From Roseobacter sp. MH60115 (GTDB taxonomy: Bacteria; Pseudomonadota; Alphaproteobacteria; Rhodobacterales; Rhodobacteraceae), in the NCBI RefSeq assembly GCF_015644665.1, contig NZ_JADOBQ010000003.1, positions 248,001-312,000 of the forward strand: a stretch of 64,000 nt of DNA, read 5' to 3'. This document shows positions 30,616 through 45,273 of the stretch, piece after piece (the stretch's first letter is position 1; every line of letters begins with the position of its first letter). The notes below the pieces were generated by a model that did no database searches, was not told the origin of the DNA, and saw only the letters and a program-made list of their open reading frames with translations. The position numbers and the translations under genes were made by a program.

Positions 30616-30642
30616 GGGTGGCCTGAAGCCCACCCTACCTGC
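30616..30642 (+). repeat. REP-like sequence, single copy
   Basis: This 27-base segment between argE-like and oxidase genes differs by one base from the REP unit beside the RAYT at 44.6 kb. It forms an imperfect hairpin (GGTGG...CCACC) with the GTAG tetranucleotide on the 3' side in this orientation. Confidence 0.8.
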
Positions 30643-39600: not shown

Positions 39601-39627
39601 ACAGGTAGGGTGGGCCTTGGGCCACCT
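39601..39627 (-). repeat. Diverged REP-like sequence
   Basis: Twenty-three of 27 bases match the REP unit next to the RAYT, including GTAGGGTGGGC and GGCCACC arms. It lies just before the transhydrogenase terminator, in the gap after pntB. Confidence 0.7.
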
Positions 39628-44607: not shown

Positions 44608-44682
44608 GGGTGGCCTAAAGCCCACCCTACCTGCCTATCTCAACCGGTGCGCCCAGCAGGTAGGGTGGGCTTTAGGCCACCC
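44608..44682. repeat. Inverted REP pair (BIME) beside RAYT gene
   Basis: Two perfect 27-base copies in opposite orientation (44608-44634 and 44656-44682) are separated by 21 bases. Each has the GTAG tetranucleotide followed by an imperfect hairpin (GGTGGGC-TTTA-GGCCACC), the hallmark of REP elements. The pair lies 42 bases upstream of the RAYT ATG and may form a large cruciform or terminate the SDR transcript. Confidence 0.9.
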
Positions 44683-44724
44683 TTGTTTGGGATTTCTTAA
44701 CCATAGGGTTGATACGCTTGCCTT

Positions 44725-45273
44725 ATGTCCAAATACATCCGATCCCAGACACCCGGCGGCACGTATTTCTTCACCGCGCGCCTAGCAAACAGCCGCAGCA
44801 CCTTGCTGACGGATGAGGTCGATTTACTGCGGCGCTGTGTGCGAGAGACCATCACCCGCTACCCCTTCGCAATCGACGCAATCGTGATCCTGCCTGCGGC
44901 GATCCATACCCTCTGGACGCTGCCGGAAGGCGATGCGAATTTCAGCACAAGGTGGAGTTTCCTGAAATCGCAATTCTCCCGCGCGCTTCCGGACCCGTCT
45001 GCGCGCACAAAAACGCAATGCGACCGCAGGGAAAAGGGCATATGGCAACGCCGCTTCTGGGAACATCGCATCCGCTCTGCACATGATCTTGCCTTGCACC
45101 GCACGCTCATCCACACGGCGCCGGTTCAGGCCGGCCTCGTGGACCGGCCATCCGACTGGACCTGGACATCATTGCACCGGGATTTGGCAACGTCAGATGT
45201 AACGGCAAACGCGCCGCCGCCCGTGCGCTTCAGCACAATGGGCCTGAAGACAATCGCGCCCGCTGATGCCTAA
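44725..45273 (+). CDS. REP-associated tyrosine transposase (RAYT) family, catalytic motifs altered
   Basis: The 182-residue Y1-transposase-like protein has the family layout: GGTYFFTARL near the N-terminus, VILPxxIHTLWTLPEGDANFSTRWS, IWQRRFWEHRIR, and HxAPVQAGLVDRPSDWTWTSL. RAYTs bind REP sequences and can cleave them. Here the HUH motif is Ala59-Ile60-His61 instead of His-x-His (Ala58 also replaces the usual Asp), and the position of the catalytic Tyr is Leu128, with Ala132 replacing the usual Asn. The frame is intact and conserved elsewhere, suggesting a domesticated REP-binding protein rather than debris. It overlaps the convergent amidotransferase by four bases; no clear ribosome site. 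Confidence 0.85.
   Translation: MSKYIRSQTPGGTYFFTARLANSRSTLLTDEVDLLRRCVRETITRYPFAIDAIVILPAAIHTLWTLPEGDANFSTRWSFLKSQFSRALPDPSARTKTQCDRREKGIWQRRFWEHRIRSAHDLALHRTLIHTAPVQAGLVDRPSDWTWTSLHRDLATSDVTANAPPPVRFSTMGLKTIAPADA

Follow-up and report, generated by a model that had tools for sequence, protein, structure and literature searches.

The locus and its RAYT-derived gene

The window, a 64,000-nucleotide stretch of DNA from Roseobacter sp. MH60115, carries on its forward strand an open reading frame of 182 amino acids (44725-45273, ATG start) that is derived from a REP-associated tyrosine transposase (RAYT). Its conserved upstream neighbour is a short-chain dehydrogenase gene (SDR; PF00106; 43853-44605, forward strand), and its conserved downstream neighbour is a convergent gene of the Peptidase C26 or glutamine amidotransferase type (GATase; PF07722; 45270-46046, reverse strand), which overlaps the RAYT stop by 4 nt. 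Two REP units lie between the SDR and RAYT genes. The left arm (44608-44634, reverse strand) begins 3 nt past the SDR stop codon, and the right arm (44656-44682, forward strand) contains GTAG at 44660-44663 followed by the hairpin. A single REP hairpin consists of GTAG and GGGTGGGCTTTAGGCCACCC and is imperfect because of one internal G-G mismatch, while the two arms of the pair are perfectly inverted copies of each other over 27 bp, separated by a spacer of 21 nt. The pair ends 42 nt before the RAYT ATG, and the coordinates therefore bear out the initial annotation, which had described a perfectly inverted REP pair 42 bases upstream of the gene. Two further cores of the same family are found in the window at 39609-39626 (forward strand) and 30617-30634 (reverse strand), and these sites are matched on both flanks in the genus genomes G014 and G004, respectively. 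In addition, a TTAACC-like motif is visible by eye about 20-40 nt before the RAYT start at many dead and some live loci (in the window, within 44683-44724), and is possibly a promoter element.

The NCBIfam profile NF047646 (REP_Tyr_transpos) matches the ORF with an E-value of 2.5e-45 and a score of 153.9 bits (cut-off 80), and Pfam gave no match up to E 1. An AlphaFold model (mean pLDDT 83.6) has its best PDB match in E. coli TnpAREP (4er8; TM 0.79), and family profile and fold agree in placing the protein among the RAYT/TnpAREP proteins. The sequence alignment with 4er8 (E 2.6e-33), which is ungapped up to residue 87, pairs the first HUH histidine with A59, the second with H61, Y115 with L128 and N119 with A132. 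Residues 59-61 read A-I-H, which leaves the HUH motif with only its second histidine. The first is replaced by Ala59 (44899-44901), the catalytic tyrosine by Leu128 (45106-45108), and the asparagine of the Y---NP context, the third metal ligand, by Ala132 (45118-45120). In TnpAREP the two histidines and N119 are the metal ligands, according to passages of PMC6006769. The earlier reading of the His-x-His motif as Ala59-Ile60-His61 and of the tyrosine position as Leu128 is confirmed by the sequence and by the 4er8 alignment, and the asparagine has to be added to the losses. Tyrosines occur only at positions 4, 14 and 46 of the ORF, hence no substitute lies close to the old site; the alignment and these positions rule out a relocation of the catalytic residues, an outcome that the initial annotation had named as contrary to its view. 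A mobile IS200/IS605 transposase is likewise ruled out, since the window's genome has one RAYT copy at a fixed locus, the active site is lost, and the IS200-type family PF01797 has no match in that genome.

A clade of RAYTs with eroded active sites

Active sites were classed at four positions (first His, second His, Tyr, Asn) in 131 distinct homologues and the query, and 85 of these 132 sequences have the state HHYN. In a maximum-likelihood tree of 131 rows, whose bootstrap had not quite converged and whose inner branches are only moderately supported, 35 sequences including the query form one clade (support 100/98). Asparagine is missing in all 35 members (34 Ala, 1 Ser), the first histidine and the tyrosine are both lost in 30, and the second histidine is kept in 34. 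The frames of all 35 are open. The remaining five members are intermediates (HHYA, n=2; HHFA, n=2; HHLA, n=1), and because they are nested within subclade 2 and do not branch off basally, tyrosine and first histidine were probably lost repeatedly after a shared loss of asparagine. The most likely order of decay is asparagine first, followed more than once independently by tyrosine and first histidine. The half-dead ORFs L040, L300, L295, L301 and L296 form a graded series of HHY-A, HHF-A and HHL-A beside fully dead sisters and are useful natural mutants. The sole member in which the second histidine is also replaced (L008 in G016; Gln) belongs to a genome that still holds 49 REPs.

The loss of the first histidine, tyrosine and asparagine in all ten further gene-bearing genomes of the genus and in other genera rules out sequencing error or strain-specific decay. 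As to whether the altered residues would be conserved across relatives, the same alterations are present in open frames in the genus and beyond, and the frameshifts or random decay that would have spoken against domestication were not found in close relatives. As judged from sequence, the dead RAYT is a clade-wide state and not one decaying gene, and it is more widely spread than the sequence of a single window could show. Outside the clade, altered RAYTs occur singly (e.g. L076, L305, L313) and form no group. A survey of 394 genomes of the family gave 125 that match the dead-clade profile; 30 loci were read, so these matches are not a count of dead RAYTs.

The clade occupies two fixed chromosomal loci, with a single exception among its members (34/35). 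Each of the 20 members of subclade 1 adjoins the SDR and/or the C26/GATase gene (17 adjoin both), and HbpS-like and malate synthase genes are often next in line. In subclade 2, within the flanking sequence retrieved, 14 of 15 members share the neighbours of L036, namely FabA, ketoacyl synthase, a radical-SAM/UPF0004 protein and a glycosyltransferase-like protein (a weak match, slightly under Pfam's cut-off); L299 has none of these FabA-locus neighbours. Since the outgroups (Tateyamaria, L014, L297) carry the dead gene at the same locus as the genus, the simplest view is that catalysis was lost before the genus arose.

Among the 18 other genus genomes searched, ten carry the dead gene. In the eight of the 19 genus genomes that have no RAYT, SDR and GATase still lie close together, and a search between the two genes at E 1e-5 found no trace of a RAYT; the dead RAYT is therefore dispensable. 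A second RAYT above the NF047646 cut-off was found in none of the 19 genomes, where only the dead locus matches, which rules out a second, live RAYT in the genus at that cut-off. PF01797 matches occur in only four of the 19 genomes (ten in G004, one short match in G014), thus IS200-type proteins do not account for the REPs of six other REP-rich genomes. The GATase tree by itself leaves the deep genus branches unresolved.

REP populations

REP cores were counted in the genus with the pattern GGTGGGCN{3,6}GGCCACC and with the reversed pattern as a control. Eight genomes are rich in cores, with 78 in the window's genome (G000), 69 in G002, 68 in G015, 76 in G011, 62 in G006, 68 in G014, 49 in G016 and 83 in G004. 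The other genomes with the dead gene have 2 (G005), 3 (G007) and 7 (G013), and the eight genus genomes without a RAYT have 0-2. The control gives 0-2 across the genus and 1 in the window's genome; a population of 78 there is more than chance, and it accompanies the GTAG-tagged REPs beside the gene (44608-44682). In the eight genomes with 49-83 REPs the dead RAYT is the only RAYT found, and among the 11 gene-bearing genus genomes these eight are exactly those with a REP pair directly upstream of the RAYT. With a broader Y/R pattern, applied to 13 genomes, the REP-poor counts are at or near control (e.g. G013 9 vs 12, G005 10 vs 5). One lone real REP pair is seen in G005 (G005:C12:379312-379381), which is otherwise REP-poor and carries the dead RAYT.

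The REPs of subclade 2 are different, near-perfect palindromes (GTAAGGTGGGTCTTGACCCACC and kin). G238, in which the only RAYT found is L296 (G238:C16:69500-69964; HHLA, with Tyr and Asn lost and HxH kept), contains 150 palindromic REPs (GRTGGRTYNNRAYCCAYC; control 0), and G156, in which the only RAYT is of the HHFA type, contains 18 (control 0). G358 and G368 have 93 and 52 REPs and were not counted as dead-only genomes, because a live RAYT is also present in both. Five further subclade-2 genomes have 0-10 palindromic REPs. In G358, which carries an HHFA RAYT and a live one, near-identical REPs stand about 136 nt apart on contig C7 (e.g. 77940/78076, 198326/198463, 204422/204558) and look like a recently amplified element.

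Conservation and placement of REP sites

Both flanks of the 54 REP sites of the window's genome are shared with a REP site in G014 for 32 sites and in G004 for 31, which mostly rejects the idea that REPs still jump freely within the genus; sharing of one flank adds 2 sites in G014 and 8 in G004. The 22 sites without two-flank sharing in G014 comprise 14 that could not be bracketed and eight that could, of which six are stem variants, another is interrupted by an insertion and the last is missing; the checkable apparent absences are mostly the stem variant GGCGG..CCGCC at the same place. Six of the 54 sites match neither G014 nor G004, and three of these (A8, A29 and A35) are stem variants in G014. 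Lineage-specific gain or loss is possible for some sites. Relaxed matching brackets 40 of the 54 sites in G014, 38 of them with a REP, and 35 of 36 bracketed sites in G004 have one, although most G014 and all G004 flanks were fetched for holding a REP and retention is over-estimated there; in synteny-only regions of G014 a REP is present at six of eight bracketed sites. At site A23 the orthologous REP of G014 (L238, contig C7) is split by an insertion of about 235 bp.

The stems have changed on both sides together. Between G000 and G014, the third stem pair shows a two-sided change in 9 of 51 REPs, a one-sided wobble in two and a broken pair in none; the second pair is broken in one REP, and the loops differ in 28 of 51. 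In G004, 44 REPs show no stem change, in a set that was itself chosen by stem pattern. Where brackets of less than 700 nt were available, intact REPs were found at 0/8 sites in G013, at 0/9 in G005 and at 0/4 in G008, which has no RAYT; by eye, remnants are present at three of the G013 sites (A25, A26, A45). Because of these empty sites and remnants, and because G013 groups with the REP-bearing G004 and G016 (97.1/97; likewise in the RAYT tree), G013 very probably lost REPs that its sister species kept.

By crude ORF calling, the 54 sites of the window's genome lie between tandem (28), convergent (17) or divergent (5) genes or within ORFs (4). The tandem sites have a median position of 8.5 nt past the stop codon, and for 25 of 28 the distance to the stop is shorter than that to the following start, as it is for 13 of 17 in G014 and 21 of 26 in G004. 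Such a position, at the 3' ends of genes, is compatible with action on transcript ends and with action on single-stranded DNA. In all tabulated inverted pairs the tags face inward. Core spacings within the pairs of G000, G014 and G004 form clusters at 18-22 nt and at 36-39 nt, and a few measure 56-57 nt, as if set in steps of about 18.5 nt. The orientation of single REPs relative to transcription shows no clear bias in raw counts from the three genomes (18 same, 26 opposite).

GTAG-contact residues and possible REP binding

E. coli TnpAREP contacts GTAG through W94, Q95, E100, H101 and R104, as set out in a part of PMC6006769, and these residues map to W107, Q108, E113, H114 and R117, all present in the window ORF. 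In the clade, W107 is conserved in 35/35 members, Q108 in 34/35, E113 in 31/35, H114 in 34/35 and R117 in 29/35. The stretch WQRRFWEH together with R117 is intact in 12/12 REP-rich genomes vs 1/8 REP-poor ones (Fisher 1.0e-4), and the five named contacts alone in 12/12 vs 3/8, where REP-rich means at least 18 REPs and REP-poor at most 10, the cut was set after the data had been seen, two REP patterns were used, and the genomes are related and not independent. The comparison covers 20 of the 24 REP-counted clade genomes; the other four, G209 (0 REPs), G262 (5), G416 (2) and G263 (1), belong to subclade 1 and were counted by the subclade-2 pattern only. In addition to the clade member, a live RAYT is present in G358, G368 and G067. 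Among the REP-poor members of the genus, a named contact is changed in G005 and G007, and a neighbouring residue in G013 (R110H); in G234 the contact stretch is also changed outside the five named residues. Furthermore, an automatic search found a tagged hairpin within 160 nt upstream in 17 of 26 members with intact contacts vs 2 of 9 with altered ones (p = 0.05), and in 48 of 700 random windows. At least one REP pair that can be seen by eye (L006) escaped the detector, and the resulting table is thus conservative; it shows no tagged hairpin for 9/26 members with intact contacts (including L291, L034, L035, L038 and L010) and for 7/9 with altered ones. The conservation of the GTAG contacts and their link with REP abundance suggest that the protein binds REPs, and the tie between REPs and protein is supported by association.

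A counterpoint to a REP-reading protein is that G005, G007 and G013 retain the dead gene and have hardly any REPs of the core family. Moreover, E. coli REPINs also occur in genomes without a RAYT, according to part of PMC8049555, hence REPs need not depend on the RAYT protein. The dead RAYT could on these grounds have a host role unrelated to REPs, with another ligand or partner, and the REPs could be passive survivors. The gene is kept not only in the REP-poor genomes but also in subclade-1 relatives without a detected tagged hairpin upstream, and in G013, where the bracketed sites are empty, it remains an open frame with pN 0.19 and pS 0.73 against G016. We regard such a role as unlikely, though as the most serious of the alternatives, given that the REPs of the genus persist at orthologous sites with two-sided stem changes, that they are at or near control level in gene-free genomes, and that the GTAG-contact stretch is altered in the three REP-poor members named above.

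Selection on the dead gene

Nei-Gojobori estimates give the RAYT a dN/dS of 0.07-0.19 in eight genus genome pairs with computable dS, several of them close to saturation and one more pair saturated; this is far under 1, in line with the check that the initial annotation had proposed. The same pairs give 0.06-0.21 for the SDR gene and 0.01-0.06 for the GATase gene. Clade entropy rises at the catalytic positions 59 (from 0 to 2.73 bits) and 128 (from 0 to 1.74 bits), and most of the GTAG-contact stretch stays near invariant. Positions 4, 23, 52, 103, 135 and 148, among others, have also loosened, so that the change is not confined to catalytic sites.

A slowly dying gene, in which catalysis was lost ancestrally and the present constraint is the fading echo of a drifting sequence, would fit the absence of the RAYT from eight genus genomes with the neighbours in place, a RAYT dN above that of GATase and HbpS in 9/9 pairs compared, and the scattered active-site changes in homologues outside the clade. 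It is nevertheless improbable, because all 35 frames of the clade are open, the dN/dS range is similar to that of the SDR gene, and 20 positions are invariant across 21 members that reach down to 49% identity to the query. Loss of catalysis together with purifying selection is well supported by these comparisons. The initial annotation had proposed domestication as a REP-binding regulator. Its first element, domestication without cleavage, is well supported, since relatives share the alterations in open frames, no residues have relocated and dN/dS is well below 1; REP binding is upheld in part, by the contact conservation and the link with REP abundance, and is set against several genomes that have the dead gene and few REPs of the searched types; the regulatory role would follow only by extension.

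Continued cutting or joining of REP DNA through other residues of the protein might be imagined from His61 being kept in 34/35 members and from REP populations that lie in genomes where no other RAYT was found and that something must have spread. It is very improbable, because no tyrosine follows residue 46, the nucleophile and two of three metal ligands are gone, neither cleavage nor transfer was seen when the tyrosine of three TnpAREP enzymes was mutated to phenylalanine in experiments reported in part of PMC8266576, and recent spreading need not be invoked when most comparable REP sites are shared and old. There is a remote chance of an altered chemistry that uses the alanine at the old asparagine position and the kept His61.

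A probable non-cutting binder of REP hairpins

The probable explanation is that the gene descends from a RAYT by vertical inheritance and has been kept as a non-cutting binder of GTAG-tagged REP hairpins, after HUH-tyrosine cleavage was abandoned and all cutting residues but one were lost. The dead protein would have retained the recognition of hairpin and GTAG, and the REPs that lie about 8 nt after stop codons would present its target in single-stranded DNA or at transcript 3' ends. The REP pair before the RAYT gene may feed back on RAYT expression, and the protein may similarly affect other REP-adjacent genes. REP binding and any regulatory role are inferred.

More tentatively, the clade of mostly marine alphaproteobacteria might possess a cutting-free RAYT-REP network, in which the dead RAYT would serve specifically to read several dozen conserved post-stop hairpins. 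Selection would hold these hairpins in place, as stem compensation and the decay in G013 alongside a change in its otherwise invariant WQRRFWEH may indicate, and the REP population would have outlived the loss of the cutter or even been built after it. Should the RAYT of the genus ancestor already have been dead, the REPs shared by G000 and G004 would come from an older live enzyme, from a since lost enzyme acting in trans, or from the dead RAYT without cutting.

Relation to known systems

E. coli TnpAREP (4er8, group 2) cleaves and transfers REP DNA, as described in part of PMC8266576, whereas the window protein, with first histidine, tyrosine and asparagine replaced, should not. The two are alike in fold, in sequence and in the GTAG-contact stretch, and in both the partners are GTAG-tagged imperfect hairpins, REPs form inverted pairs and the gene is a single chromosomal copy. 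Bertels and colleagues reportedly described in 2017 live RAYTs that are 'domesticated' and passed on vertically, together with REPIN populations that persist. Such live RAYTs, as treated in sections of PMC8049555, resemble the present case in vertical inheritance, in the persistence of REPs with the gene and in fewer REPs without it. They are held there to replicate REPINs at a low rate, whereas subclade 1 has lost the active site throughout, and the REP sites that allow a comparison are mostly shared and old. The IS608 and ISDra2 TnpA proteins (IS200/IS605 family) share the HUH-Y1 fold family and hairpin recognition (TM about 0.45); they are mobile, have element ends and an intact active site, in contrast to the window gene, for which no mobility was seen. 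TldR proteins descended from nuclease-dead TnpB. These RNA-guided regulators follow a like logic, that of a transposon nuclease that no longer catalyses and persists as a binder (PMC13418256, in part). They belong to an unrelated family and use a guide RNA instead of a hairpin, and function is shown for TldR and would be only presumed here.

HUH and tyrosine are conserved in the RAYTs aligned in the portions concerned of PMC2817692 and PMC3733652, and the classification outlined in part of PMC6006769 kept 722 of 924 sequences and set aside those without both motifs as suggesting non-functional proteins. No title or abstract opening that deals with catalytically dead RAYTs came up in searches of the open-access PMC literature. 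The exact function of RAYTs is stated to be unknown in a passage of PMC8049555, and the dead clade addresses the unsettled question of how RAYTs benefit the host and why REPs persist. A long-lived lineage that keeps protein and repeats without cutting separates a benefit of binding to the host from self-copying. Furthermore, the HHYA, HHFA, HHLA and dead forms, together with gene-free relatives, provide natural mutants for each step, which makes the question directly testable.
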